Source: Phytoseiulus persimilis (Eukaryota; Arthropoda; Arachnida; Mesostigmata; Phytoseiidae). Taken from it: DNA of 64,000 nucleotides. Both the position numbers and the translations under genes were made by a program. The DNA is taken from NCBI GenBank assembly GCA_037576195.1, contig CM075104.1, positions 316,775 to 380,774 of the forward strand, written 5' to 3'. Shown piece by piece: positions 11,038 through 26,679 of this stretch. Within the stretch, counting starts at the first letter, position 1. Every line of letters begins with the position of its first letter. The notes beneath the pieces are model-generated. The model was not told the origin of the DNA. It saw only the letters and a list, made by a program, of their open reading frames with translations, and searched no databases.

Positions 11038-11242
11038 ATGAGGTCTATCGATTAGTAGACCCTGCTCCGGGACAGCATGTTCTGTCAAACAGATGGGTAT
11101 TTTCCCTAAAGAAAGATGAAGATGGAAAACTTATCAAAGGGAAAGCTTGTTGTACGAGGGTGTCAACAGCGCCCTGGAGTTGAATATGGAAGTCTATTCA
11201 GCCACACAGCGAGTTTTGAGACGATTAGAACTATATTGTCTA
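11038..11242 (+). pseudogene. Copia-0 RT fragment 2
   Basis: It encodes the N-terminal Copia RT block: VYRLVDPAPGQ, NRWVFSLKKDEDG, LVVRGCQQRPGVEY and FETIRTILS, with one small frame change near 11145. It aligns with the Copia-2 RT directly after fragment 1 and directly before fragment 3. It stops at the codon TCT (11239-11241), where the minisatellite element begins. Confidence 0.85.
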
Positions 11243-11282
11243 CTTTTCTCTCTCTTCACTGGGTCAGCAATATGGTTTTGAA

Positions 11283-14200
11283 AAGTATGGTCAGATTGGT
11301 CCCCGAATCAACCCCTCAGACTTGGAAAGTAATGGTCAGATTGGTCCCGGAATCACCCCTCCAGAGTTGGGAAGTAATGCTCAGATTGGTCTCGGAATCA
11401 CCCCTCCAGAGTTGGGAAGTAATGCTCAGATTGGTCTCGGGATCACCCCTCCAGAGTTGGGAAGTAATGCTCAGATTGGTCACGGAATCACCCCTCCAGA
11501 GTTGGGAAGTAATGCTCAGATTGGTCTCGGAATCACCCCTCTAGAGTTGGAAAGTAATGCTCAGATTGACCCCGGAATCACCCCTCCAGAGTTGGGAAGT
11601 AATGCTCAGATTGCTCTCGGAATCACCCCTCCAGAGTTGGGAAGTAATGCTCAGATTGGCCTCGGAATCACCCCTCCAGAGTTGGAAAGTAATGGTCAGA
11701 TTGGTCCCGGAATCACCCCTCCAGAGTTGGGAAGTAATGCTCAGATTGGTCTCGGAATCACCCCTCCAGAGTTGGAAAGTAATGCTCAGATTGACCCCAG
11801 AATCACCCCTCCAGAGTTAGAAAGAAATGCTCAGATTGGTCCCGGAATCACCCCTCCAGAGTTGGGAAGTAATGCTCAGATTGGTCCCGGAATCACCCCT
11901 CAAGAGTCGGAAAGTAATGCTCAGATTGGTCTCGGAATCACCCCTCCAGAGTTGGGAAGTAATGCTCAGATTGAGCCCAGAATCACCCCTCCAGAGTTGG
12001 GGAGTAATGCTCAGATTGACCCCGGAATCACCCCTCCAGAGTTGCGAAGTAATGCTCAGATTGGTCTCGGAATCACCCCTCCAGAGTTGGAAAGTAATGC
12101 TCAGATTGAGCCCGGAATCACCCCTCCAGAGTTGGAAAGTAATGCTCAGATTGACCCCGGTATCACCCCTCCAGAGTTGGGAAGTAATGCTCAGATTGAG
12201 CCCGGAATCATCCCTCCAGAGTTGGGAAGTAATGCTCAGATTGACCCCGGAATCAACCCTCCAGAGTTGGAAAGTAATGCTCAGATTGAGCCCGGAATCA
12301 CCCCTCCAGAGTTAGGAAGTAATGCTCAGATTGTTCTCGGAATCACCCCTCCAGAGTTGGAAAGTAATGCTCAGATTGACCCCGGAATCACCCCTCCAGA
12401 GTTGGGAAGTAATGCTCAGATTGGTCTCGGAATCACCCCTCCAGAGTTGGAAAGTAATGCTCAGATTGACCCCGGAATCACCTCTCCAGAGTTGGCAAGT
12501 GATGCTCAGATTGAGCCCGGAATCACCCCTCCAGAGTTGGAAAGTAATGCTCAGATTGGTCTCGGAATCACCCCTCCAGAGTTGGAAAGTAATGCTCAGA
12601 TTGACCCCGGAATCACCCCTCCAGAGTTGGGAAGTAATGCTCAGATTGAGCCCGGAATCTCCCCTCCAGAGTTGGGAAGTAATGCTCAGATTGAGCCCAG
12701 AATCACCCCTCCAAAGTTGGGGAGTAATGCTCAGATTGGTCCCGGAATCACCCCTCCAGAGTTGGGAAGTAATGCTCAGATTGGTCTCGGAATCACCCCT
12801 CCAGAGTTGGAAAGTAATGCTCAGATTGGTCCCGGAATCACCCCTCCAGAGTTGGGAAGTAATGCTCAGATTGGTCTCGGAATCACCCCTCCAGAGTTGG
12901 AAAGTAATGCTCAGATTGACCCCAGAATCACCCCTCCAGAGTTAGAAAGAAATGCTCAGATTGGTCCCGGAATCGCCCCTCCAGAGTTGGGAAGTAATGC
13001 TCAGATTGAGCCCGGAATCACCCCTCCAGAGTTGGAAAGTAATGCTCAGATTGGTCTCGGAATCACCCCTCCAGAGTTGGAAAGTAATGCTCAGATTGAC
13101 CCCGGAATCACCCCTCCAGAGTTGGGAAGTAATGCTCAGATTGAGCCCAGAATCACCCCTCCGAAGTTGGGGAGTAATGCTCAGATTGACCCCGGAATCA
13201 CCCCTCCAGAGTTGGGAAGTAATGTTCAGATTGCTCTCGGAATCACCCCTCCAGAGTTGGAAAGTAATGCTCAGATTGACCCCAGAATCACCCCTCCAGA
13301 GTTAGAGAGAAATGCTCAGATTGGTCCCGGAATCACCCCTCCAGAGTTGGGAAGTAATGCTCAGATTGGTCCCGGAATCACCCCTCAAGAGTCGGAAAGT
13401 AATGCTCAGATTGGTCTCGGAATCACCCCTCCAGAGTTGGGAAGTAATGCTCAGATTGAGCCCAGAATCACCCCTCCAGAGTTGGGGAGCTCAGATTGAC
13501 CCCGGAATCACCCCTCCAGAGTTGCGAAGTAATGCTCAGATTGGTCTCGGAATCACCCCTCCAGAGTTGGAAAGTAATGCTCAGATTGAGCCCGGAATCA
13601 TCCCTCCAGAGTTGGAAAGTAATGCTCAGATTGACCCCGGAATCACCCCTCCAGAGTTGGGAAGTAATGCTCAGATTGAGCCCGGAATCATCCCTCCAGA
13701 GTTGGGAAGTAATGCTCAGATTGGTCTCGGAATCACCCCTCCAGAGTTGGAAAGTAATGCTCAGATTGACCCCAGGATCACCCCTCCAGAGTTAGAAAGA
13801 AATGCTCAGATTGGTCCCGGAATCACCCCTCCAGAGTTGGGAAGTAATGCTCAGATTGGTCCCGGAATCACCCCTCAAGAGTCGGAAAGTAATGCTCAGA
13901 TTGGTCTCGGAATCACCCCTCCAGAGTTGGGAAGTAATGCTCAGATTGAGCCCAGAATCACCCCTCCAGAGTTGGGGAGTAATGCTCAGATTGACCCCGG
14001 AATCACCCCTCCAGAGTTGCGAAGTAATGCTCAGATTGGTCTCGGAATCACCCCTCCAGAGTTGGAAAGTAATGCTCAGATTGAGCCCGGAATCACCCCT
14101 CCAGAGTTGGAAAGTAATGCTCAGATTGACCCCGGTATCACCCCTCCAGAGTTGGGAAGTAATGCTCAGATTGAGCCCGGAATCATCCCTCCAGAGTTGG

Positions 14201-16152
14201 GAAGTAATGCTCAGATTGACCCCGGAATCACCCCTCCAGAGTTGGAAAGTAATGCTCAGATTGAGCCCGGAATCACCCCTCCAGAGTTAGGAAGTAATGC
14301 TCAGATTGTTCTCGGAATCACCCCTCCAGAGTTGGAAAGTAATGCTCAGATTGACCCCGGAATCACCCCTCCAGAGTTGGGAAGTAATGCTCAGATTGGT
14401 CTCGGAATCACTCTCCAGAGTTGGAAAGTAATGCTCAGATTGACCCTGGAATCACCTCTCCAGAGTTGGCAGGTGATGCTCAGATTGAGCCCGGAATCAC
14501 CCCTCCAGAGTTGGAAAGTAATGCTCAGATTGGTCTCGGAATCACCCCTCCAGAGTTGGAAAGTAATGCTCAGATTGACCCCGGAATCACCCCTCCAGAG
14601 TTGGGAAGTAATGCTCAGATTGAGCCCGGAATCTCCCCTCCAGAGTTGGGAAGTAATGCTCAGATTGAGCCCAGAATCACCCCTCCAAAGTTGGGGAGTA
14701 ATGCTCAGATTGACCCCGGAATCACCCCTCCAGAGTTGCGAAGTAATGCTCAGATTGGTCTCGGAATCACCCCTCCAGAGTTGGGAAGTAATGCTCAGAT
14801 TGGTCCCGGAATCACCCCTCCAGAGTTGGGAAGTAATGCTCAGATTGGTCTCGGAATCACCCCTCCAGAGTTGGAAAGTAATGCTCAGATTGACCCCAGA
14901 ATCACCCCTCCAGAGTTAGAAAGAAATGCTCAGATTGGTCCCGGAATCGCCCCTCCAGAGTTGGGAAGTAATGCTCAGATTGAGCCCGGAATCACCCCTC
15001 CAGAGTTGGAAAGTAATGCTCAGATTGGTCTCGGAATCACCCCTCCAGAGTTGGAAAGTAATGCTCAGATTGACCCCGGAATCACCCCTCCAGAGTTGGG
15101 AAGTAATGCTCAGATTGAGCCCAGAATCACCCCTCCAAAGTTGAGGAGTAATGCTCAGATTGACCCCGGAATCACCCCTCCAGAGTTGGGAAGTAATGCT
15201 CAGATTGCTCTCGGAATCACCCCTCCAGAGTTGGAAAGTAATGCTCAGATTGACCCCAGAATCACCCCTCCAGAGTTAGAGAGAAATGCTCAGATTGGTC
15301 CCGGAATCACCCCTCCAGAGTTGGGAAGTAATGCTCAGATTGGTCCCGGAATCACCCCTCAAGAGTCGGAAAGTAATGCTCAGATTGGTCTCGGAATCAC
15401 CCCTCCAGAGTTGGGAAGTAATGCTCAGATTGAGCCCAGAATCACCCCTCCAGAGTTGGGAAGTAATGCTCAGATTGAGCCCGGAATCTCCCCTCCAGAG
15501 TTGGGAAGTAATGCTCAGATTGAGCCCAGAATCACCCCTCCAAAGTTGGGGAGTAATGCTCAGATTGACCCCGGAATCACCCCTCCAGAATTGCGAAGTA
15601 ATGCTCAGATTGGTCTCGGAATCACCCCTCCAGAGTTGGAAAGTAATGCTCAGATTGAGCCCGGAATCACCCCTCCAGAGTTGGAAAGTAATGCTCAGAT
15701 TGACCCAGGAATCACCCCTCCAGAGTTGGGAAGTAATGCTCAGATTGAGCCCGGAATCATCCCTCCAGAGTTGGGAAGTAATGCTCAGATTGACCCCGGA
15801 ATCACCCCTCCAGAGTTGGAAAGTAATGCTCAGATAGAGCCCGGAATCACCCCTCCAGAGTTAGGAAGTAATGCTCAGATTGTTCTCGGAATCACCCCTC
15901 CAGAGTTGGAAAGTAATGCTCAGATTGACCCCGGAATCACCCCTCCAGAGTTGGGGAGTAATGCTCAGATTGGTCTCGGAATCACCCCTCCAGAGTTGGA
16001 AAGTAATGCTCAGATTGACCCCGGAATCACCTCTCCAGAGTTGGCAAGTAATGCTCAGATTGAGCCCGGAATCACCCCTCCAGAGTTGGAAAGTAATGCT
16101 CAGATTGGTCTCGGAATCACCCCTCTAGAGTTGGAAAGTAATGCTCAGATTG
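11283..16152 (+). repeat. 45-bp minisatellite array, about 108 units, with higher-order repeats
   Basis: The unit is 45 bp, with core words AATGCTCAGATTGG, GGAATCACCCCTCC and AGAGTTGGAAAGT. Units differ at a few fixed positions, and the same order of variants recurs. The rare variant CAAGAGTCGG occurs at 11901, 13386, 13876 and 15360, spaced 1485, 490 and 1484 bp. That is 33 units, 11 units less a 5-bp deletion at about 13489, and 33 units less a 1-bp deletion at about 14411. The array thus grew by duplication of blocks of 33 and 11 units. Because 45 is divisible by three and units lack stops in all plus frames, long repetitive ORFs appear; I regard them as a by-product. Units at the outer edge (11283-11340) are the most diverged. 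Confidence 0.95.
16148..16152. repeat. Target site duplication of Copia-1, left copy (GATTG)
   Basis: GATTG immediately left of the Copia-1 LTR is repeated at 32976-32980 right after the right LTR. Removing 16153-32980 restores the minisatellite unit in register. Confidence 0.95.
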
Positions 16153-16465
16153 TGTTGAAATACAGCCATATTTCTGGGTAGCTGTAATTAGTCTGAAACA
16201 CTGATGGGTCCAGAAGACGAGGACATTCTGACCGGAACCCTTTTCTGTGAGATACTGACAACGGCGTCCGTGAAGGACTTCCGGTCTTCACGGACGGGTG
16301 CAGCTTTCCACACTGATATATAAATCCTGAATAAAGAACTGCTCGGGGAGCTACATGATTCTAACACCGAATCTCTGTCTTATTATTCCGTGCCGTGATC
16401 TTCCAGACTCACAGAGTACTTCCAGATCGTGTCCACCGACTGACCCCAGTGGGTTATTTCCAACA
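16153..16465 (+). repeat. 5' LTR of Copia-1
   Basis: It is 313 bp with TG...CA ends. It contains TATATAAA at about 16317-16324 and AATAAA at 16330-16335. The only differences seen from the right LTR are T/C at the base after TATATAAA and T/C in CTGTCT(T/C)ATTATTCC. Confidence 0.95.
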
Positions 16466-16469
16466 TTCG

Positions 16470-16847
16470 TGTTGAGTATTTGATGTTTCACCCAGACCAG
16501 TCGTCAGCACAGTATCTGGATAATCAGGGAAGACGCCAGTCGAGCTCGAAGCATCTGTGAACTTTGAGTATGGTCACTGTGCGCAGGCAATCACTGTAGA
16601 TTACTGAGATAGAAATTGGACGCCCTGTAGATTGACGTCAAGCGTCAGTATTCGCCGTGTAACTCTCACCAGTCAGTGACTATAAAAGCCGGAATAAAAC
16701 TTCAGTGTGTCGGGGGAGCCAAACATTCTGTCCACCAGAATTGTCGTCTTTATTCAATAGCCGTCGTCTCTGTGCAAGTCTTGTACGCGCCACCGATCAT
16801 CTCGTCCAGCCGCAAAGAAGCTAGAGCCAGGCCGAAAAGGCTTATCA
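16470..16847 (+). repeat. 5' LTR of Copia-2
   Basis: It begins TGTTGAGTATTTG and ends GGCTTATCA. A TATAAAAG box is at 16681-16688 and an AATAAA at 16693-16698. The three differences from the right LTR are at GATGTTT(C/T)ACCC, CTCACC(A/C)GTC and TATAAA(A/T)GCC. Confidence 0.95.
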
Positions 16848-16935
16848 GCGTTATCAGCACGACACACTCAGGTTGAGCGGGTCGGTGGCGTAAGTATACA
16901 TCGGTGAATCAAGGAAGTCACAGTTCAGCATCACG
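16848..16935 (+). promoter_or_regulatory. Copia-2 leader with a candidate 5' splice site
   Basis: Between the LTR and the gag ATG lies GTAAGTATA at 16890-16898, a near-perfect eukaryotic splice donor. CAG directly before the env-like ATG (21043-21045) could serve as acceptor, giving a spliced subgenomic env-like mRNA as in retroviruses. I could not assign the tRNA primer-binding site with confidence; it should lie right after 16847. Confidence 0.5.
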
Positions 16936-19557
16936 ATGTCAAGACAGCAATCCGCCAGAGATGCCCAAGGCCCCCACGGCTTCGTTCACTACGGACTGGA
17001 CGGTCTCGAAGTTGATCCAGAACCCAGCTCCAGCACATCCGGAGATCCCATCGTGTGTGGACCAAGACCACGAGTCGCAACCAACATCATCCTAGCACTA
17101 GACGGCAAGAACTACATACCATGGCGCACAGTCATGCCATCCGTACTAGATGGAGAACCGTATGCCTGGCCTGTAACCATCGGGAAACTCAACCCACCAG
17201 CTCCAGATCAAGCAAACACACCAGAGGGCAAAACGCAAATGAAGAACTACACCATCGGAAACAGAGCTGCGAGGTACGTGCTAATCAACTCGATACACCC
17301 GAATCTCGCCACATCATTATTCCTCGACAGCGCAGATAACATAGCAGCACAGGAGATATGGCGCCGAATCAAGAACAAGTTCACGCGCGCAACAGGCACA
17401 AGGAAAGGCCTGGCACTGTCGAAGTTCATGACGTTCGAATACCAGCCAGGACTATCCGTTGGCGATAACCTCCTCGCTTACAAGAAAGTCATCTTCGAGC
17501 TCAACACAGTTGGAATCAACTTACCAGACGATGTCCAGTGCTCCAAACTTCTAGAGGCGCTTCCAAGTTCATGGGAACCGTTCCGACAGGGATGGAGCAC
17601 CCGACTGGACTCTGACAAACATCTGGACACACTGACGGATCTAATCGAAGGAGAAGCCACTCGAAGGAACCAAAGTGACGTCAACGAGATCACAGCGATG
17701 TTCTCCCGATTCAACCCCTCAAGGAATCAACACTTCAGGAGAAGAAACTTCGCCAGAAGATACAACTTCCGAAGAACATCTGTGCAGTCATCCGAAGTAA
17801 TATGTTACAACTGCAATCAAAGAGGACACATGCAATCAGCCTGCAGACTTCCCCGACAAGGCGGGAATCAACGCAGAGGCGGATTTCGAGGCAGAGGAAG
17901 AGGCAGAGGACAATCGAGAACACTACCGCCGCAAGCCAACATTGCTGAAGCCCTGATCGTGGAATGCCAGCAAGCCGAAGTCAATCAGGCAAGTGCTGAA
18001 GAAATATTTGCTGTTGATAGCGGCTCGACCCACCACATGCTAACCAGCCTGAAATGGATGACGGACTACAAGCCGTTCGAAAACAACCAAGTGGTCGCAC
18101 TCGGCGGATCCAACACCCTAAGTGCACAGGGGTCAGGAACCGCAATTGTGCCAGTGAACAACGACAACAAGACCGCAACGCTATGTCTAAAGGACGCTCT
18201 GTACGTACCCAGGCTTCGCAGAAATCTAATTTCAGTTTCAAAGCTACTAAACGAGAAGTTTCGTATTTTGGTAACTGAGGAGGCCATCACCATACTCCGA
18301 GACAACGATGAAGCTCGAGCTGAGCAACAAAATGGATTGTTCGTGTTCCATGCAAGTGAACCAGTGGAGGGAAACGTTGCGGGACTGAAGAAGAGAGTAA
18401 GTCTGAAAGCGGTACATGAAATGTTCGCTCACATCAACGTTAAGACCCTCAGGAAAATGCTGAACCGCGAAGGATACGAGATAATCAATGACTTCGTGAA
18501 ATGTGACGTATGTACCCAAGGCAAGATGCATCGTTCGAGCAACAGGCCGAAACCCGGGAAAGTGGTAGCTCCAAGACCAGGGTACATACACGCGGATACC
18601 TGCGCTATGCGTAAGAGATCTCTTGGAGGAGCAAATCTGTTTCTCACGCTGACTGACGACATGACTCGATTTCGAAAAGTGTACTTCTTGAAATCAAAGG
18701 ATCAAGTACCTGACCGCATCGCGGAGTTCGTCAAATGGTTCCAGAATCAAAGCGGTTTCACTGTGTATCATCTCCACTCTGATGAAGGGACTGAGTTCAA
18801 GAATCAGAGAGTGAAGGAGATCACGAGTGCCATCGGAGCTGATGTAAGTTACTCCCCTCCTTTTACCCCCCAACTTAACGGTGTAAGTGAGCGTTTAAAT
18901 CGATCGTTGCTTGACTTGGCAAGGACCATGCTCATCGACAGTGGCCTGCCCAAGTACCTTTGGGCGGAAGCCGTGAGCTTTTCCGCCCACGCGACGAATT
19001 GCGTAAAGTTTGTCGAATCAACCGGGAAGACACCGTACGAGATGATCATGAGGAGAAAACCATACATCAGTCTCATCAGAGCATTTGGCACCGAGTGCAA
19101 GTTTTACAACCGCACCCCGCAGAAGGACAAGTTGGACACCAGAGGATTCCCAGGCTACATCGTCGGGATCGACGAAGATGGACTCAGCTATCGTGTGTGG
19201 TATCCCGAGACCAGACAGATCGTCAGGACGAAAGACGTGAAGGTGAGCACTCCCAGTCCACTGGATGGGGGAGTCGCCTCAGAGAATGCCGCCGAAGTAG
19301 AAGCGCCTGAAGGCAACGGCGAAGAGCAGATCGAAGAAGCCAATCCGTCAGCAGATACCAGAGAGAACGCATCTGCAAGAGAAGAAGCAGCATCCGCGGG
19401 CCCCGTGCCGGAAAGAGAATCCTCGAATGAAGGACATGGCGCCGCAGGAGCGGCTGCCCCAAGTGAAAAACGCAACGAACGGCGCGGGAGATACGAGCTA
19501 CGAGATCGATCCAAGTTAATTTGGTTAATAATTTGGTTGACGAACCAACATGTATAG
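16936..19557 (+). CDS. gag-pol: Copia-2 Gag-protease-integrase polyprotein
   Basis: It has 873 codons starting at an ATG. A Copia Gag domain occupies about residues 50-250. A zinc knuckle CYNCNQRGHMQSAC is near residue 288, followed by an Arg/Gly-rich basic stretch (RGGFRGRGRGRGQSR). The protease has FAVDSGSTHHM near residue 360, with DSG in place of DTG. The pre-integrase zinc-binding domain has a HxNxxxL, CDVCTQGKMHR pattern near residues 495-535. The DDE integrase has acidic residues in HADTC, HSDEGTEF and NGVSE near residues 553, 616 and 653. Gag packages RNA, protease cuts the polyprotein and integrase inserts the cDNA. The frame closes at 19557, while RT continues one frame over from about 19480, so RT expression needs a frameshift or this copy has a one-base mutation. 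Everything else looks intact. Confidence 0.95.
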   Translation: MSRQQSARDAQGPHGFVHYGLDGLEVDPEPSSSTSGDPIVCGPRPRVATNIILALDGKNYIPWRTVMPSVLDGEPYAWPVTIGKLNPPAPDQANTPEGKTQMKNYTIGNRAARYVLINSIHPNLATSLFLDSADNIAAQEIWRRIKNKFTRATGTRKGLALSKFMTFEYQPGLSVGDNLLAYKKVIFELNTVGINLPDDVQCSKLLEALPSSWEPFRQGWSTRLDSDKHLDTLTDLIEGEATRRNQSDVNEITAMFSRFNPSRNQHFRRRNFARRYNFRRTSVQSSEVICYNCNQRGHMQSACRLPRQGGNQRRGGFRGRGRGRGQSRTLPPQANIAEALIVECQQAEVNQASAEEIFAVDSGSTHHMLTSLKWMTDYKPFENNQVVALGGSNTLSAQGSGTAIVPVNNDNKTATLCLKDALYVPRLRRNLISVSKLLNEKFRILVTEEAITILRDNDEARAEQQNGLFVFHASEPVEGNVAGLKKRVSLKAVHEMFAHINVKTLRKMLNREGYEIINDFVKCDVCTQGKMHRSSNRPKPGKVVAPRPGYIHADTCAMRKRSLGGANLFLTLTDDMTRFRKVYFLKSKDQVPDRIAEFVKWFQNQSGFTVYHLHSDEGTEFKNQRVKEITSAIGADVSYSPPFTPQLNGVSERLNRSLLDLARTMLIDSGLPKYLWAEAVSFSAHATNCVKFVESTGKTPYEMIMRRKPYISLIRAFGTECKFYNRTPQKDKLDTRGFPGYIVGIDEDGLSYRVWYPETRQIVRTKDVKVSTPSPLDGGVASENAAEVEAPEGNGEEQIEEANPSADTRENASAREEAASAGPVPERESSNEGHGAAGAAAPSEKRNERRGRYELRDRSKLIWLIIWLTNQHV

Positions 19558-21092
19558 AAGAAGTTCACAAGTCCAATTACAGCCAGCAGTGGCTTAGTGC
19601 GATGGCGGAGGAGATGGCGTCACTCGATTTCCACAAGGTTTGGAAGCTCACCGAGCTTCCAAAAGGCAGACGCACGGTTGGAAATCGATGGATCTTCAAA
19701 GCAAAGAAAGACGCACTAGGTAACATCGAGAGGTTTCGTGCAAGATGGGTCATTCAAGGATTCAGCCAACGTCCAGGTATAGATTTCACAGAACTCTACT
19801 CGCCTGTAGCTAGATTTGATACCATCAAAACGATTCTGTCAATAGCTGCCAGGGAGAGATTGATACTATACCAATTCGACGTTAAGACGGCGTTTCTGCA
19901 CTCGGAACTGTCGGAGGAAATCTACACGAACCAACCAAAAGGGTTCGAAGATGGAACGAATCGAGTCTGCAAACTCTTGAAGGCAGTCTACGGCCTTCGT
20001 CAGGCATCAAGGGCTTGGAACCTGGAGATCAACCAGGTTCTAACAGGACTTGGACTCACACAGAGTCAAGCTGATCCTTGCGTCTACTTCACAAATGGCC
20101 CAAAGCGAGTTTTGGTTGCCTTGTACGTTGACGATGGATTGACAGCGGGATCAGACCTAAAGGTCGTGCAGGAGTTTCTCGAGATCCTCGGTGAGGAGTT
20201 CGCAATCACTTCCAGGAAGTTGGAGTTCTTTCTCGGTCTACATATCGAATCATCAGATGACAACTCCGTCATTCGTGTCCACCAATCAAAGTACATCCAA
20301 GGACTGTTAGACAGATTCCAGATGTCAAAATGCAAGGAAACAGCAGTCCCGATAGACAACAGCTACAAGTCGAGTCCCAGTGACGAGATCGAACCAGAAC
20401 TGCCGTATCGTTCAATCGTTGGCGGTTTGATGTACCTCACGATTGCGACGCGCTTTGACCTCGGTTTCGTGGTAGGATACCTGTCAAGGTTCCTGGATCG
20501 TCCCACCAGACGTCTTTGGGATCTCGCGTTGAAAGTGCTGCGCTACCTCAAGGGTACCAAGACTTTCGGTCTCCGGTACTCGGGGAGCGGTCCAGAACTG
20601 CTCGAGTGTTTCAGCGATGCGGATTTCGCTGGCGACGAGCAAACGAGACGGAGCACCACCGGATTACTGATTAGGTTCGGAGGTGGAGTCATTTCTTGGG
20701 CAAGCAACCGCCAAGCGTCAGTGACGCTCTCTTCAATGGAGGCGGAGCTTGTGGCCCTTCCCGAAACACTCAAGACCGCGATTTGGACAGCGCGTTTACT
20801 CGCAGAGCTTGGACATCCAGTCGTACCAAAGTTGCTTGTTGACAACCAGTCGACGATCGCTCTTGCTGAGAATCCATCCTTTCACAAGCGCTCAAAGCAC
20901 ATCGAGGTGAGACATTTCTACTGTCGAGAGAAACTGCAACCCGGAGAGATCACAATCCATTATTGCCCAACAGCACAGAACATTGCTGACATTCTGACGA
21001 AGTGCCTGCCTAGAGAAACGTTCCAAAGACTCAGATCACTTGCAGATGGAAACCCTCAAGATGATGATCGCAGTGTGCGTGATGGCCAGTAG
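19521..21092 (+). CDS. pol: Copia-2 reverse transcriptase and RNase H
   Basis: It has 523 codons in the frame offset from gag-integrase. RT motifs in order are WLSAMAEEM, RWIFKAKKDALG, FDVKTAFLHSEL, the catalytic YVDDGLTAG, LEFFLGLHIE and LPYRSIVGGLMYL. RNase H has FSDADFAGDEQTRRSTTG, SSMEAELVAL and LVDNQSTIALAENP, and ends LPRETFQRL. It copies genomic RNA to DNA and degrades the template. The listed start is a TTG; the same frame is open back to about 19480, so it is probably read as part of the upstream polyprotein. Its last 47 bases overlap the start of the env-like gene in another frame. Confidence 0.95.
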   Translation: MVNNLVDEPTCIEEVHKSNYSQQWLSAMAEEMASLDFHKVWKLTELPKGRRTVGNRWIFKAKKDALGNIERFRARWVIQGFSQRPGIDFTELYSPVARFDTIKTILSIAARERLILYQFDVKTAFLHSELSEEIYTNQPKGFEDGTNRVCKLLKAVYGLRQASRAWNLEINQVLTGLGLTQSQADPCVYFTNGPKRVLVALYVDDGLTAGSDLKVVQEFLEILGEEFAITSRKLEFFLGLHIESSDDNSVIRVHQSKYIQGLLDRFQMSKCKETAVPIDNSYKSSPSDEIEPELPYRSIVGGLMYLTIATRFDLGFVVGYLSRFLDRPTRRLWDLALKVLRYLKGTKTFGLRYSGSGPELLECFSDADFAGDEQTRRSTTGLLIRFGGGVISWASNRQASVTLSSMEAELVALPETLKTAIWTARLLAELGHPVVPKLLVDNQSTIALAENPSFHKRSKHIEVRHFYCREKLQPGEITIHYCPTAQNIADILTKCLPRETFQRLRSLADGNPQDDDRSVRDGQ

Positions 21093-21735
21093 CGCGTCAG
21101 AGTACTTCACTTACTCCGACTGCGACACTGATTGCCAGAAGATGAACTGGCCATGTACAATTTCCCAAACGAATGAGAACAACTTTCCATGCGACTGCGT
21201 AGAGCTCGAGGCGAGCTGTCTCAGATTGGCATCTAGAGAAGTCGTATGCCTGATCAAGAACAGGACTGCCGTAGGAGGAGAAGACATTTGGATTCCATAC
21301 TTCAACCATACGCACCCGTCAACACCATCACCCCCAGTGCCCGATCCTGATCGGAGAAATGGATATTGGTTCAAATTTTTATCAATATATTTCGTGGTCA
21401 CAAATGTGATTTCGGTGCTCGCCGGTCTGGTCGTCCTCATGAGATGGATCAGAGGGATTCGAGCGCGTTCATACGCTCGCATGCCTGATCCACCTCTTGA
21501 ACAAGAGGATGGACCATACCGACCGACATCCGAAGAGATTCGAGATGCAACTCTTTCTTGTGAATCTCGTTTTTCCCAAATAATAAAACGCACGTCTCAC
21601 TATTTACAAAAGAGATTTGAACCTTTATTCGATAAGTCAGGCGGAGAAGATCGAGTAATTGGAACAAAGTTTTTGTATCTCGGATACATCTTGTCCATAT
21701 GCAGCAAAGTTACGTGGATCATAGTCTCGAACTGA
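21046..21735 (+). CDS. Copia-2 env-like type I membrane protein
   Basis: It has 229 codons from ATG 21046, chosen because CAG|ATG sits there and the start aligns with the Copia-0 homologue. It shows a hydrophobic signal peptide (about residues 5-18), then an ectodomain with nine to ten cysteines and two N-glycosylation sequons (NRT, NHT). A proline-rich stalk (PSTPSPPVPDPD) leads to a transmembrane segment at about 108-132 and a basic then acidic cytoplasmic tail. The ectodomain signature C-x6-C-x3-AS-x4-C and GG-x-DIWI-x-Y-x-N-x-TH recurs in Copia-0 (40469-40962), and the first part recurs in Copia-1 (28099-28241). Topology and position after RNase H match retroviral env genes. I recognise no known glycoprotein family; function in membrane fusion or attachment is inferred only from architecture. 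Confidence 0.8.
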   Translation: METLKMMIAVCVMASSASEYFTYSDCDTDCQKMNWPCTISQTNENNFPCDCVELEASCLRLASREVVCLIKNRTAVGGEDIWIPYFNHTHPSTPSPPVPDPDRRNGYWFKFLSIYFVVTNVISVLAGLVVLMRWIRGIRARSYARMPDPPLEQEDGPYRPTSEEIRDATLSCESRFSQIIKRTSHYLQKRFEPLFDKSGGEDRVIGTKFLYLGYILSICSKVTWIIVSN

Positions 21736-22772
21736 CAAATGATCCGGAGTCGGAATGTGCAGAGGGATGACGACACAGCGTCGATCCCTGCGGTAGATAC
21801 AGGTCCGCACATACGACATCTGGTAACAGTGATATCTGCGGATATCCAATTGGAATCGCCTGGGTGGTAAAGTCGATGAAATCGGATCGGTGTTCATTTC
21901 GGAACTCGAGAGAGTCGAAATCGGAGCGGCGTCAGTTGTCACCGAATGCGTTGTTGACTTTGGAGAAGTCAAACGCGCGGTTGTGGAAGAAGAAGGTAGA
22001 ATCCGAATTGTTGTTGTGGAAACCGGCAGATCCGAAGTAACAACACCCTCGGCAGTAGTCAAAGATGACTGAGTGGTGGTTGTAGTCGGTACCATGGGAA
22101 CCGGAGTCGTCGGACGCCGTGTCGTCACCGACGAAGATGTTGTTGAAGGAGAAGGTGATCGAGTCTGTCCAAAGTACAATCTTTGGATGGCAGTTGTGCG
22201 CTCAACGTACCAATGATGAGTCGTCGTCGAAGAGCGGAGAGCCCTTGGAGTTGTTGATCTCGGCATCCAACGACGAGTCGTCGTGTGGCGGCGCTCATCA
22301 TATCTGGTAGCGTGAGTGGTTGTGGCTGGAGAATGACCCTTAGCGGTCTGTTCGGTAACGAACCGATAAGTTGGTGTCGTGAGAATCGTTTTCACTGTCG
22401 TAGTCGGGTTTGGCGTTGCAGCCGGCGTCGGAAGTCCGACCGTCTGCAGACTCGTGAAATTTCGAGAGCGCACGGTCTCGCGAACCATGCGCTCCCCCCT
22501 CGTGGAGGTTGAGCTCAAGAGGAAAACTGTAGGAGAGTAACGGAAACATTGGAATGCAGCTCACACGGAAACGTAGCCAGGAAATGTAACGAAGTCTGAT
22601 ACGCACCCGAGTAGACTAGGATTCCGAGAACGACCGTCAATGCAGAAATCACGAACAACAAATATCTTGCCACTCCACGAGTCGCGCGCAGATTGAAAGC
22701 CATCGATCGAACACTCGATTCACTGGTTTGATTCAAAGTGGAATACTCAAGATCAAGCCCTTGGAGTTCCAT
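21637..22772 (-). CDS. Copia-2 antisense gene B: mucin-like type II membrane protein, one intron
   Basis: On the minus strand, exon 1 (22772-22607, ATG start) encodes a short cytoplasmic tail, then ARYLLFVISALTVVLGILVY, a clear transmembrane anchor at residues 36-54. A donor G|GTGCGT at 22607/22606 and an acceptor CTCCTACAG|TT at 22527/22526 define an 80-bp intron in phase 1. Exon 2 (22526-21637) stays in frame and encodes about 295 residues: a long Thr/Ser/Pro-rich region (runs such as VPTTTTTQSS) typical of O-glycosylated mucins, then a C-terminal domain with four cysteines and a sequon (NYS). The total is 351 residues. An AATAAA lies at 21629-21624, just after the stop. Unspliced, the frame stops soon after exon 1. 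It overlaps the 3' end of the env-like gene tail to tail by 99 bp. I know no homologue; a role as a surface attachment or shield protein is inference. Confidence 0.68.
22527..22606 (-). other. Predicted intron of antisense gene B
   Basis: It is 80 bp with GT-AG ends on the minus strand and a pyrimidine-rich stretch before the acceptor (TTACTCTCCTACAG). It has in-frame stops inside, and splicing keeps the frame in phase 1. On the plus strand these sites are reversed, so the genomic RNA of the element would not be spliced there. Confidence 0.6.
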
Positions 22773-22859
22773 CGTGGAGAGCACGGATCAAGAGAAGGTA
22801 GCTCTCGAGGCGGGGGAAGTTTTGGAAGTTGCACTCGATGCATCAACACTCATCAAGCA

Positions 22860-22910
22860 ATGTTTAGTGTCAAGACTCCCACTCCCCTTCCAATTTTTTT
22901 ATGCTCCAAG
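22860..22910 (-). promoter_or_regulatory. Candidate promoter of antisense gene B
   Basis: On the minus strand a TATA-like CATAAAAAAA lies at about 22905-22896, some 130 bp before the ATG. A start near 22870 would give a leader of about 100 bases. The signal is weaker than the promoter of gene A and could be chance in an A-rich stretch. Confidence 0.3.
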
Positions 22911-22976
22911 AAAACACTTGAATCTTGGTCACAGAAAAAAAAATCTAAACCGAGCTCATCAGAATACATACTCTAT

Positions 22977-23521
22977 TTATTCGTAACAAAGGTAGACTTC
23001 GAGGTCTCCACAGACGTTGACAAACATCCTCAAAGCGCGCCTCTGGACGCGGCAAACCGCATAGGTTGGGACTGGGACTTCTGCCCGCATGAGGAGGCAG
23101 CGCCTTGTTGCCGAAGAGAGGCAAACCCAATTCTGGGCCAGACGCTCGCACATGAATTGACGCAAGTCAATTTGCTCCCGGATGACTTCCTCCAGATGCA
23201 CAACGCTGGGGAGCGCGGGCATATCTGAATGGAGAACGATTGAGATGATGAGATCGAGAAACAGCAACAGCACATGTCAACAATAAAGTTCGTTAGTTTT
23301 TTTTTTTGGCCTCACTCACCGACGATGATCCAGACGACGAGGACCAATCCTAACACGACGATCGCAAGGAAGGGACGGTGCCTACCTAATCTGCGGAATG
23401 CCCTCAGGGCTTGCACCAGTCTCCTCGGAATGACGATGACAACTTCATCATCCAAAACAGTCGTGCCGATCACAATTTGACGGTTTTCGTCGGAAGGGTT
23501 GTTGCTGTTGCCTGTGGGCAT
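22977..23521 (-). CDS. Copia-2 antisense gene A: small type II membrane protein, one intron
   Basis: On the minus strand, exon 1 (23521-23320, ATG start) encodes a 50-residue hydrophilic tail with RR and RRLGRHR, then a transmembrane segment FLAIVVLGLVLVVWIIV (residues 51-67). A donor G|GTGAGT at 23320/23319 and an acceptor TTCTCCATTCAG|AT at 23225/23224 define a 95-bp intron in phase 1. Exon 2 (23224-22977) continues in frame for 81 residues with six cysteines, giving 149 residues in total. The stop TAA overlaps an AATAAA (22981-22976). Like gene B, exon 1 is tail plus anchor, the intron sits right after the anchor, and exon 2 is the ectodomain. I do not recognise the family. Without splicing, exon 1 stops five codons on. 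Confidence 0.68.
23225..23319 (-). other. Predicted intron of antisense gene A
   Basis: It is 95 bp with canonical GTGAGT donor, a T/C-rich tract and CAG acceptor on the minus strand. It contains a run of 13 A and in-frame stops. Phase 1, as in gene B. Splicing exactly joins two otherwise separate ORFs. Confidence 0.6.
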
Positions 23522-23544
23522 CTTGATTCTCACTCCGCGAGATT

Positions 23545-23580
23545 CGGTGATTGAGTGCTCAGAACCACCCCCTTTTATAC
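23545..23580 (-). promoter_or_regulatory. Candidate TATA promoter of antisense gene A
   Basis: On the minus strand GTATAAAAGG lies at 23580-23571 with the TATAAAAG core at 23579-23572. An initiator-like CTCAATC lies about 25 bases downstream near 23550, and the ATG is at 23521. The spacing is that of a standard RNA polymerase II core promoter. Confidence 0.6.
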
Positions 23581-23876
23581 GATTTTGGCGAGAGTTTGTC
23601 TCGAGATTCGGTCGTATGTCAGTTCAATTGCAAAGCAAATTTCGCGACAAAGATGTCTAGACAGACATCAGCTTGGAGTTTCTCTATAGAATTCGAACCG
23701 TTGAATTGATAAAGCATCGAGTGAAGTCTCTACACATTGCATGCTAGATAAGCGCTTCCGCTGAAGAGATCTGTAATCACGGAGTTGCGCATCCGAGTAA
23801 TGTCACATGCAATGTTCCCCACATCGGAAGGTTCCGGCTATGATCATGCGAACGACTGTTCTGTGTAGGAGGGAGT
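23581..23876. other. Upstream region of antisense gene A and purine tract of Copia-2
   Basis: There are about 300 bases with no ORF of note. The right end, GTAGGAGGGAGT at about 23865-23876, is the polypurine tract that would prime plus-strand DNA synthesis. The rest could hold upstream promoter elements for gene A, but none was identified. Confidence 0.6.
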
Positions 23877-24254
23877 TGTTGAGTATTTGATGTTTTACCC
23901 AGACCAGTCGTCAGCACAGTATCTGGATAATCAGGGAAGACGCCAGTCGAGCTCGAAGCATCTGTGAACTTTGAGTATGGTCACTGTGCGCAGGCAATCA
24001 CTGTAGATTACTGAGATAGAAATTGGACGCCCTGTAGATTGACGTCAAGCGTCAGTATTCGCCGTGTAACTCTCACCCGTCAGTGACTATAAATGCCGGA
24101 ATAAAACTTCAGTGTGTCGGGGGAGCCAAACATTCTGTCCACCAGAATTGTCGTCTTTATTCAATAGCCGTCGTCTCTGTGCAAGTCTTGTACGCGCCAC
24201 CGATCATCTCGTCCAGCCGCAAAGAAGCTAGAGCCAGGCCGAAAAGGCTTATCA
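23877..24254 (+). repeat. 3' LTR of Copia-2
   Basis: It is 378 bp, the same length as the left LTR and about 99 percent identical. It is followed directly by the target duplication ATTCG (24255-24259). The TATA box here reads TATAAATG. Confidence 0.95.
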
Positions 24255-24361
24255 ATTCGTTATTGCTCACGATACCGCTCTACGGACCCATACGACTGGA
24301 CAGTGTACTGTGAGGTGTGTGACTCTCCCGTGAATAGTTCGGTGCAACTCCAACGAGTGAA

Positions 24362-24775
24362 ATGTATCAAATGGAGAGTCAGCCAACACACGAAGATTCC
24401 AGTAGCTCCCACGGCTCAAGCAACGCAGGCGACCAGATGCCCGGGCACTCAGCAACAATAGAAAGTGGTAGGCTGAAAGCAGAAAACAAACAGAAGCGAG
24501 AGTATGGTGAGGACATGGAGGACTCCAACAACCTCGACGTAGGCTCGAGAAACCGGTACCAATACATCGGTGTGCTGCGGCCTGATGGTGCGAACTACAC
24601 CGAATGGGTTGTTTTCCGCGACTTTGGATGCAGACCCGTTCGCCCTCGATGTGACCCTGTGGAAACTGATGCCACCGCGAGCGATCTCCGGGCGGTCATT
24701 CACCGCGAGGGAGGAATCCGGAAAATCCCTTGTGCCCCTAGTGAATGCCATGGAGATTGAAGCTCTCAGACTGGT
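24362..24775 (+). pseudogene. Copia-1 gag remnant
   Basis: From ATG 24362, a hydrophilic Ser/Glu-rich stretch is followed by RYQYIGVLRPDGANYTEW, which resembles the Copia Gag N-terminal motif (L-x-G-x-NY-x-x-W) seen in Copia-2. After about 24610 the frame is lost to a shift, and related codons continue in another frame to about 24775. No zinc knuckle is recognisable. Confidence 0.65.
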
Positions 24776-25129
24776 ACCCACGAGGTGACGGTTCTGTCCA
24801 TGGAGCTCCAGGCTTCCCATGGAGAACAGCATCGCAGAGACACTCATAACCGTAGGGCCAGCATCAACCGAACGGTCACCAGTTCCAGCGAGAGATCCTG
24901 TCAAATGATCAGACTGCCCAATTTCGGGCCCCAATTCGGAAAAGGAAGTCAAGCCGATAACGTCAAGAACATCGCTCACAAAGCCCTCAACAGTCCCACC
25001 GGTACCAGCATGTACGTCCCAGAGGACGACCCTTGAATCGACAACAGCTATGAAGTTTCAACGATACTGAAACTCACGTTATCGAAGCTCTCAACTGTGA
25101 GACAGGTATCGTAAAATCAAGCAACGTAC

Positions 25130-25945
25130 CAACCGATAGTGAATACTTCGTGGACAGTGGAATGATCCCTCACACGATCATCTACACGCCCTATCATCAG
25201 CCACGTGAGATCAGATCGAGTGGTTCTAGGACCCTGAGCGCTCCTGGGTTCGGAACTGTTCGTTTCACCTCCATCTACAACGGATGTTCTCAGACTGTGC
25301 AGCTGAATGAGGTGTTGTATCTTCCACAAGTCCGACGAGATTTCTTATCAGTCTCAGGACTGGCTGACGATAACTTCGAGATGGCTGTTCTTCAAGACTT
25401 TATCACCTTGAAACAAGGGAACATGACTCTTCTGGAAGAACGCAAGAAATGTCTCCACGTTCTACGCTTTACCTACACTTCTGAAAGAAATGAAGCTGAA
25501 GGCAACAACAGTGTCAGCCTCGCGCCAATGGACCGAAGAGACGCTCACATCAACGTAGGATAGCTGAAGTCAATGTTTGAGAGAGAAGGATATGGAGTGA
25601 TCCCAGAATTTACCAGCTGTGAAAGCTGTGTTGACGGAAAGATGCATCGAGCTGGCTACCGGCAGAAGCCTAGCAGCAGACTTGCCCCTCGCATTGTATG
25701 GATCAACTGCGCTGTCGGTTCCGTAAGCACGCCTTCTTACGGAAGACATGACGCATGCCTCACATTGACTTATGACCGCAGCCGTATCCGTAAATCGTAC
25801 CTCCTCCGGAAAGAATCCGAAGTCTTCGATCGGATTAGGGATATGCTCGAAAGGTTCTACAACTGCAAATCTTACAAGATCAAGCTCGACCAGCGAGCTA
25901 TTGCCAGAACCGCTATCAACATAGAAGAAGATGGACCGAGTTGAA
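25130..25945 (+). pseudogene. Copia-1 protease and pre-integrase/integrase remnant
   Basis: The frame 25150-25563 begins with YFVDSGMIPHTI, the protease motif of this group (compare VDSGSTHHM in Copia-2), and runs through VLYLPQVRRDFLSVSGLADD. It ends at HINVG, an in-frame TAG. The next frame segment 25573-25944 has MFEREGYGVIPEFTSC, ESCVDGKMHR (zinc-binding domain) and LTYDRSRIRKSYLL (integrase). The acidic residues of the DDE triad are partly lost. It is clearly homologous to Copia-2 but dead. Confidence 0.82.
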
Positions 25946-26679
25946 GAATCCTCAAACTCGGAACTAAGGACGTTCATCGAATCCGTGACATCACTGGACA
26001 GAAACCAGTACTACCCAATGGAAACGCTAACCGGCGTCCTCCACTGTCCCCAGATGAACCCAACTTCGACGGACATCATCGGGCTTCCCTTACCAAGAAG
26101 AAACGTGCCATCTCCCAGAAAAACATCGACGGTTGAGACAGCGTCAGAGAATGGCAACTGGAGTGGAGTGAGAAATCATGATAAGATGATGTTTGAAAGT
26201 TAGGAGTGGCTGTCGATCGCGTATCCAGCACTCAGATCCTGCCTGCCACAGCTCCGCGCGGACAAAATAGGATAGTTCCCGGCAAGGACAAAGGATCAAG
26301 ACGAGGGATGCAAGTATGATTTGAGAAATCGAGGTAGCTCGTCGCTCGAAGCTCGTAGCTCATAGCTCGGAGCTTGTGAAAGCCAGATCGCATTGAGGCT
26401 TGTATAGCCCACTGTGTCTCCAGTAGTACTACGACTGATAAGATTATCAAGAAACTAGGCAGTTCGAACCCACAGGTAGACGTACCTTCCCGCCTATAGG
26501 ATAATAAGAACTTGACACATACACAGAAAAATGAACAACTAACAGCGATGGCTTCTGAACTAGGATAGTTCGAATCGAACCGGTATGACAAGCTGGTCGA
26601 TCCAGCTCCAGGATTGCGTGTCCTGTTGAGCCGCTTGGTTTCTCCTTGTAAGCAGACAAGGATTGAAACATGATCGAGC

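Follow-up and report, generated by a model that had tools for sequence, protein, structure and literature searches.

A 64,000-nucleotide (nt) stretch of the Phytoseiulus persimilis genome (contig CM075104.1, positions 316,775 to 380,774; hereafter the window) contains a complete Copia-type long terminal repeat (LTR) retrotransposon which, on balance, appears to be ambisense. Its sense strand would encode gag-pol and a type I-like membrane protein, and its antisense strand, read from a TATA promoter about 300 bp inside the 3' LTR, two paralogous genes, A and B, for type II-like membrane proteins. Coding capacity, splicing signals, purifying selection, paralogy and an antisense position in several Copia lineages are established for the predicted genes by comparison of copies. 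The original prediction for this DNA described a module of two spliced, type II-like membrane-protein genes on the minus strand, and its retention under purifying selection in independent insertions and related lineages is supported by the comparisons below. To that description are added here the paralogy of A and B, a highly diverged gene A cassette, a 168-residue env-like gene and a distribution of the module wider than one family.

Structure of the antisense genes

The original gene models proved exact: on the minus strand lie two genes for 149 and 351 residues, whose GT-AG introns measure 95 and 80 nt. Translation of gene A begins at the ATG at 23521 and its intron reads G/GTGAGT...ATTCAG/; gene B begins at the ATG at 22772 and its intron reads G/GTGCGT...CCTACAG/. 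Each stop lies at or before an AATAAA, as had been claimed: that of gene A falls inside GAATAAA, and the TGA of gene B is followed by AATAAA 7 nt on. In window coordinates the module consists of the following features.

23549..23579, minus strand: core-promoter-like stretch of gene A, TATAAAAGGGG (23569-23579) plus initiator-like TCAATC
23320..23521, minus strand: gene A exon 1, N-terminal tail and signal anchor
23225..23319, minus strand: gene A intron, 95 nt, GT-AG, phase 1
22977..23224, minus strand: gene A exon 2, six-cysteine ectodomain, paralogous to the gene B C-terminus
22976..22982, minus strand: GAATAAA with the final codon and stop of gene A
22607..22772, minus strand: gene B exon 1, N-terminal tail and signal anchor
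22527..22606, minus strand: gene B intron, 80 nt, GT-AG, phase 1 (79 nt in most other copies)
21637..22526, minus strand: gene B exon 2, Ser/Thr-rich stalk and C-terminal C-x8-C-x7-C domain
21624..21629, minus strand: AATAAA downstream of the gene B stop

At the DNA level the antisense region has 73 matches in the genome, and 33 further stretches were taken to form, with the window, a set of 34 copies. Wherever the sequence compared reaches the end of the 3' LTR, each copy has its own flanking DNA and so represents a separate insertion, the exception being the tandem L016/L019. Relative to the window, gag and integrase are mostly 95-99% identical and the antisense part 72-80% in most copies. 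In this set, which was not chosen for intactness, gene B is full length (at least 345 residues) in 16 of 34 copies, gene A in 18 and both in 12. The tandem (G000:C1:1924200-1939600) comprises two family copies about 7.9 kb apart; the 3' LTR of L019 continues into internal sequence, as in a tandem sharing one LTR with L016.

The 18 full-length copies of gene A encode 138-149 residues, and in all 18 the intron is in phase 1, with a length of 85-132 nt and a GTRAGT- or GTRAGC-type donor. All end in a Glu codon and stop, written GAATAAA in 17 copies and GAATAATAAA in one, which places the stop within or at the signal for polyadenylation. Of the 34 copies, 25 have a TATA motif, TATAAAAGG, 5' of gene A, and in most an initiator-like TCAATC or TCGATC follows some 27 nt later; in the window the A of TCAATC is 27 nt downstream of the first T of TATAAAAGGGG. 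The TATA 11-mer occurs a single time in the 64-kb window, where 0.03 occurrences are expected, and lies about 300 bp inside the 3' LTR border. The product has a single strong hydrophobic window (residues 51-69) with a basic N-terminal flank. Its ectodomain is predicted to form a small beta-rich domain (pLDDT 80) for which Foldseek returned no significant match.

Of the 34 copies, 25 contain the whole of gene B exon 1, and 22 of these have the GT and AG at the homologous place, enclosing an intron of 79-80 nt. The remaining three were not scored as spliced: L027 has a stop within exon 1, and L039 and L041 are disrupted downstream. The window has the donor GTGCGT, and most other copies the stronger GTATGT. 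Full products, found in 16 of 34 copies, measure 345-365 residues and differ in length from that of the window because of in-frame indels. An AATAAA lies at most 15 nt from the stop in 14 of these 16 copies, and a conserved ATTGGAAAGGGGAGTGGGAGTCTTGACAT stretch is found 5' of the gene in most copies. The protein has one strong hydrophobic window (residues 41-59) followed by a stalk with 42% Ser plus Thr over residues 76-275; the term mucin-like, as originally applied to this ectodomain, holds as a description only.

Conservation of the reading frames

In copies picked for intact models, with the other five frames as the contrast, the annotated frame is free of stops in 13 of 13 aligned copies for gene A exon 2, and in 12 of 12 for each exon of gene B. 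The other five frames are open in at most 3 of 13 copies, and in none of 12 for gene B exon 2. In copies picked in the same way (the first exon of gene A in L024 being taken from an upstream ATG), the Nei-Gojobori ratio of non-synonymous to synonymous substitution (dN/dS) is 0.148 for gene A exon 2, 0.451 for gene A exon 1, 0.283 for gene B exon 1 and 0.443 for gene B exon 2. The Ka/Ks comparison proposed with the original prediction accordingly yields 0.148-0.451 for these exons; reverse transcriptase (RT) gives 0.174 and the env-like gene 0.182. Variable sites are most numerous at the third codon position: for positions 1, 2 and 3 they number 53, 34 and 78 in gene A exon 2, and 81, 76 and 123 in gene B exon 2. 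Synonymous change in gene A is near saturation, in contrast to gene B and RT, where differences amount to a few per cent. For the three gene A pairs with a proportion of synonymous differences below 0.5, dN/dS is 0.107 in exon 2 and 0.270 in exon 1.

On these comparisons A and B are very probably real genes. Chance open reading frames are ruled out as their source by the conserved frame, the splice sites and dN/dS, and capture in one copy alone by the antisense genes of other Copia lineages. It is correspondingly highly improbable that they are non-functional, whether as chance frames or as relics of an unrelated gene insertion. Full-length gene A is missing in 16 of 34 copies and gene B in 18 of 34, and both genes are predictions from sequence; against this, frame, splice sites, intron phase and the stop within GAATAAA are kept at 33-75% protein identity, dN/dS is below 1, and the same antisense place is occupied in several lineages.

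Paralogy and spread through Copia lineages

The ectodomain of gene A and the C-terminus of gene B have a common C-x8-C-x7-C pattern (hhalign E value 6e-5, probability just 64), and four cysteines are invariant over 18 aligned sequences. Both genes have their intron at the same place, in phase 1, just past the anchor. The aligned proteins and gene structures together identify A and B as paralogues.

Genome protein searches gave 44 matches for gene A, 68 for gene B and 90 for a distant gene B query. Searches of the genome scored only the best candidates, 150 of 456 for RT and 150 of 229 for the env-like protein, so the genome-wide counts are lower bounds. Strand was compared between 97 hand-merged gene B places and 147 RT rows, the other three of the 150 being second pieces of interrupted RTs. 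A gene B match lies on the opposite strand, at most 7.5 kb downstream, at 59 of 147 RT loci, and on the same strand at 0 of 147, which rules out duplication of a same-strand env as the origin of the antisense genes. By RT identity, opposite-strand matches accompany 26 of 34 loci at 70% or above, the single locus at 58%, 19 of 24 at 45-49% and 13 of 88 at 38-44%.

Related antisense genes are found in Copia lineages with only 43-49% RT identity, at loci L042 to L045. At L042, matches to A (E 6.5e-7) and B (E 3.8e-6) lie antisense to the strand that carries gag, RT and env-like pieces. L045 has a single frame of 553 residues combining an anchor, a Ser/Thr-rich middle and the same cysteine-containing end as gene B, with no gene A match within the stretch examined. 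The RT next to L043 has 44% identity, and the antisense frame there contains both a hydrophobic segment and the C-x8-C-x7-C pattern. The relatives of this frame (52 rows) are mostly stop-free down to 52% identity; where coordinates were compared, they lie on the strand opposite to the nearby RTs. At L044, a gene A-like antisense match (E 0.003) adjoins a frame which ends in a hydrophobic segment.

Two further frames were observed. On the pol-3' side of the Copia with 43% RT identity, L044:348-1337 (plus strand) is a 330-residue sense frame of coiled-coil-like composition, with no Pfam family above cut-off. At L046 (G000:C2:5594359-5603238 and C2:5663986-5678439), units of about 1389 bp are repeated head to tail, and an open 322-residue frame in each joins a cytosolic-looking domain to an L043-type antisense transmembrane segment and C-x8-C-x7-C ectodomain. 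No pol was found within the 2.5 kb read, and the units are possibly an expanded or domesticated gene array.

The sense env-like partner

The env-like protein has 168 residues (ending ...EEI, equivalent to window position 21549) in 12 other copies, where it stops before gene B. In the window copy this stop reads as a sense codon and the frame runs on to 21735, overlapping gene B; given the 12 shorter copies, the resulting 229-residue open frame is rejected as the true product. The original placing of the module between the env-like gene and the 3' LTR stands, with the env-like length corrected. The protein has a hydrophobic N-terminus, a Cys-rich ectodomain, two N-glycosylation motifs and one transmembrane segment with a basic C-terminal flank or tail, a type I-like arrangement. 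Matches occur in at least 151 places genome-wide, some adjoining RTs of 43-44% identity. Tested for membership of an envelope class, it gave no Pfam, PDB-sequence or significant Foldseek match, a result to be read in the light of a poor predicted structure (pLDDT 49) and of the ease with which small, fast-evolving proteins can escape such searches.

Cassette-like diversity of gene A

Elements which are otherwise nearly identical can differ profoundly in gene A. Between L021 and L014, identity is 97% over the LTR-side 350 nt, 42% in gene A exon 1, 34% in its intron and 57% in exon 2, returning to 92% up to the start of gene B and 95% in gene B exon 2. For the same order of regions, L012 and L021 show 97, 53, 50, 70, 82 and 98%, and L021 and L026 show 81, 51, 40, 63, 93 and 95%, the LTR side thus also differing in this last pair. 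Pairs of the same type (L021/L022 and L014/L024) are 94-100% identical throughout gene A. Across 22 copies, some with broken ends, gene A proteins are 33-100% identical (median 43%) and fall into 11 types at 80% identity or 8 at 70%. The diversity of gene A in these alignments is cassette-like.

Template switching during reverse transcription could move such a cassette between element genomes. Tentatively, near-identical elements may each carry one of many old gene A alleles, in the manner of viral serotypes, to choose a receptor or to distinguish their own copies from foreign ones, with introns tolerated only because the genes are antisense. The same diversity bears on another explanation of the module, in which A and B are membrane proteins acting in the producing cell or against competing copies, through superinfection exclusion, decoy activity or self-recognition. 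Variation among near-identical elements fits a self/non-self label equally well as a receptor-binding label, and a paralogous pair would suit partner recognition. Taken alone, however, this explanation leaves unaccounted for both the widespread sense type I-like partner and the long stalk of B, and it is rather unlikely.

A putative surface module and its known counterparts

In LTR elements the sense RNA is the genome which is reverse-transcribed. Antisense splice sites would go unread in that RNA, so that antisense introns would survive transposition. In the ambisense element as envisaged here, a sense RNA from the 5' LTR would yield Gag-Pol and the env-like protein, and A and B would be made from antisense RNAs that start at internal promoters, undergo splicing and are polyadenylated at AATAAA hexamers of their own. 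The two proteins would display a shared Cys-rich ectodomain, raised in B on the Ser/Thr-rich stalk. The topology-like features, the stalk, the common ectodomain and the diversity of gene A suggest that the env-like protein, A and B may form a surface module for passage between cells or from soma to germ line, and that gene A could be its specificity determinant, kept diverse by selection.

Several observations weigh against this interpretation. The antisense transcripts, their proteins and any display on particles are predictions from sequence. No similarity in sequence or fold to any envelope, fusogen or attachment protein was found, and many of the 26 env-like copies compared have early stops. 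Hydropathy was assessed by a simple scan rather than a trained topology predictor; it gives the type II anchor of the original prediction one hydrophobic window in each protein, with a charge bias that is clear for A and weak or neutral for B, which has three basic residues on each side of the anchor. No clear TATA box was found upstream of gene B in the compared copies. Finally, synonymous divergence in gene A is saturated, and its dN/dS derives mainly from distant pairs.

Copia elements are usually regarded as confined to the cell, and the present family offers a natural test of whether they carry a surface module. Mucin-like type II attachment proteins of enveloped negative-strand RNA viruses have a short N-terminal tail, a signal anchor, a Ser/Thr-rich stalk and a Cys-containing end. 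Gene B resembles them, as originally suggested, in layout only; no relation in sequence or fold was found, and the antisense proteins gave no Pfam, NCBIfam, PDB or significant fold match.

LTR elements are already known to carry accessory genes in antisense orientation; the cassette behaviour of gene A is new. Additional antisense frames (aORF-3R) are described in plant LTR retrotransposons, among them maize Grande gene23, rice RIRE2, Silene Retand and PvRetro13 (PMC7264820, PMC11963269). In the Retand account these are plant Gypsy elements whose products have a TRP28 domain and may bind DNA, the Grande product being nuclear (PMC7264820, PMC11963269). A conserved antisense frame between pol and the 3' LTR is likewise present here. 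By comparison with what those papers describe, the present case differs in being an animal Copia with spliced, paired paralogues, membrane-anchored Cys-rich ectodomains, cassette diversity and a sense membrane partner; no Pfam family, TRP28 (PF04195) included, was above cut-off in A, B or the scanned distant homologues. HBZ of human T-cell leukaemia virus type 1 (HTLV-1) is described as an antisense, spliced gene at the 3' end of the provirus which starts in the 3' LTR and encodes a nuclear bZIP factor (PMC10186651). A and B agree with that description in strand, splicing and position. Unlike HBZ so described, the predicted gene A promoter (23549-23579) lies outside the 3' LTR (from 23877), and the products are predicted membrane proteins; the Pfam scan of A and B found no bZIP family, and hydrophobic anchors are present instead.

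These precedents raise the question of whether A and B are regulatory, their antisense RNA or protein limiting sense expression. The layout is the same, namely the interval between pol and the 3' LTR, an own promoter and antisense orientation, with splicing in the case of HTLV, and antisense RNA overlapping the sense RNA could be silenced. Against this, each product combines a membrane anchor with a Cys-rich ectodomain and shows no nuclear or DNA-binding domain, and selection acts on the protein frames and not on RNA only. A regulatory role of this kind is considered improbable.

Other precedents lie closer to the proposed surface module. The HIV-1 antisense protein ASP is reported on the cell surface and viral envelope, with two transmembrane segments and a recent origin limited to group M (PMC10186651). 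In contrast to that account, single anchors, introns and wide conservation are found here, and the likeness, that of an antisense membrane protein, is by description only. The sORF2/FAST-like protein of insect MDG1-group Gypsy elements is presented as a small membrane protein for cell-to-cell passage in elements with no classical Env (PMC11952523, preprint). The topology given there is N-out/C-in; the protein has a myristoylation motif, its ectodomain measures about 30 residues, and it is not described as antisense (PMC11952523). It serves as a functional precedent; the proteins considered here are instead type II-like and encoded on the minus strand. Further literature on known ground includes PMC5408684 and PMC8220671.

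No animal Copia with antisense membrane genes was found in the open-access literature searched, many subscription papers and the repeat databases lying outside that scope. Spliced antisense genes under protein-level selection in animal retrotransposons imply that annotation of one strand misses genes. The gene A cassette in addition provides dated alleles on near-identical backbones, which could show what keeps an element protein diverse, be it host receptors, host defence or competition between copies.

Anatomy of the element and its surroundings

The window comes from a 28-Mb contig of a genome totalling 181 Mb, and the complete Copia element occupies 16470-24254. Its LTRs are paired, each of 378 bp with TG...CA ends, and ATTCG, read from the flanks, lies on either side as the target-site duplication. 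The LTRs differ at 3 of 378 positions (99.2% identity), and the element is young. Zinc-knuckle gag and integrase precede an RVT_2 reverse transcriptase, the order which defines the Copia class. The rve domain scores 31.7 bits, slightly below its cut-off of 32.6, and the adjacent SH3_retrovirus and Retrotran_gag_2 score above theirs. These gag, integrase and RVT_2 domains are split over two overlapping sense frames, with a third sense frame from 21046.

16470..16847, plus strand: 5' LTR, 378 bp, TG...CA, with ATTCG immediately before (16465-16469)
16894..19557, plus strand: Copia gag, protease region and integrase frame (Retrotran_gag_2, zf-CCHC, Pol_BBD, SH3_retrovirus; rve below cut-off)
19467..21092, plus strand: Copia reverse transcriptase/RNase H frame (RVT_2, E 5.6e-65)
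21046..21549, plus strand: env-like sense gene, 168 residues in 12 other copies; the window frame reaches 21735
23877..24254, plus strand: 3' LTR, with ATTCG immediately after (24255-24259)

Just 3' of the 3' LTR, at 24449-26200, Copia gag/pol-like frames recognised by eye probably represent a second, decayed Copia. On the other side, a 45-bp minisatellite with a translation repeating GITPPELGSNAQI extends over 11179-16200 and stops just short of the 5' LTR; it comprises 150 overlapping 300-nt copies in register. The same minisatellite recurs at about 32.9-33.5, 41.6-42.9 and 62 kb of the window and in L021 and L042, and pieces of it adjoin some other copies.

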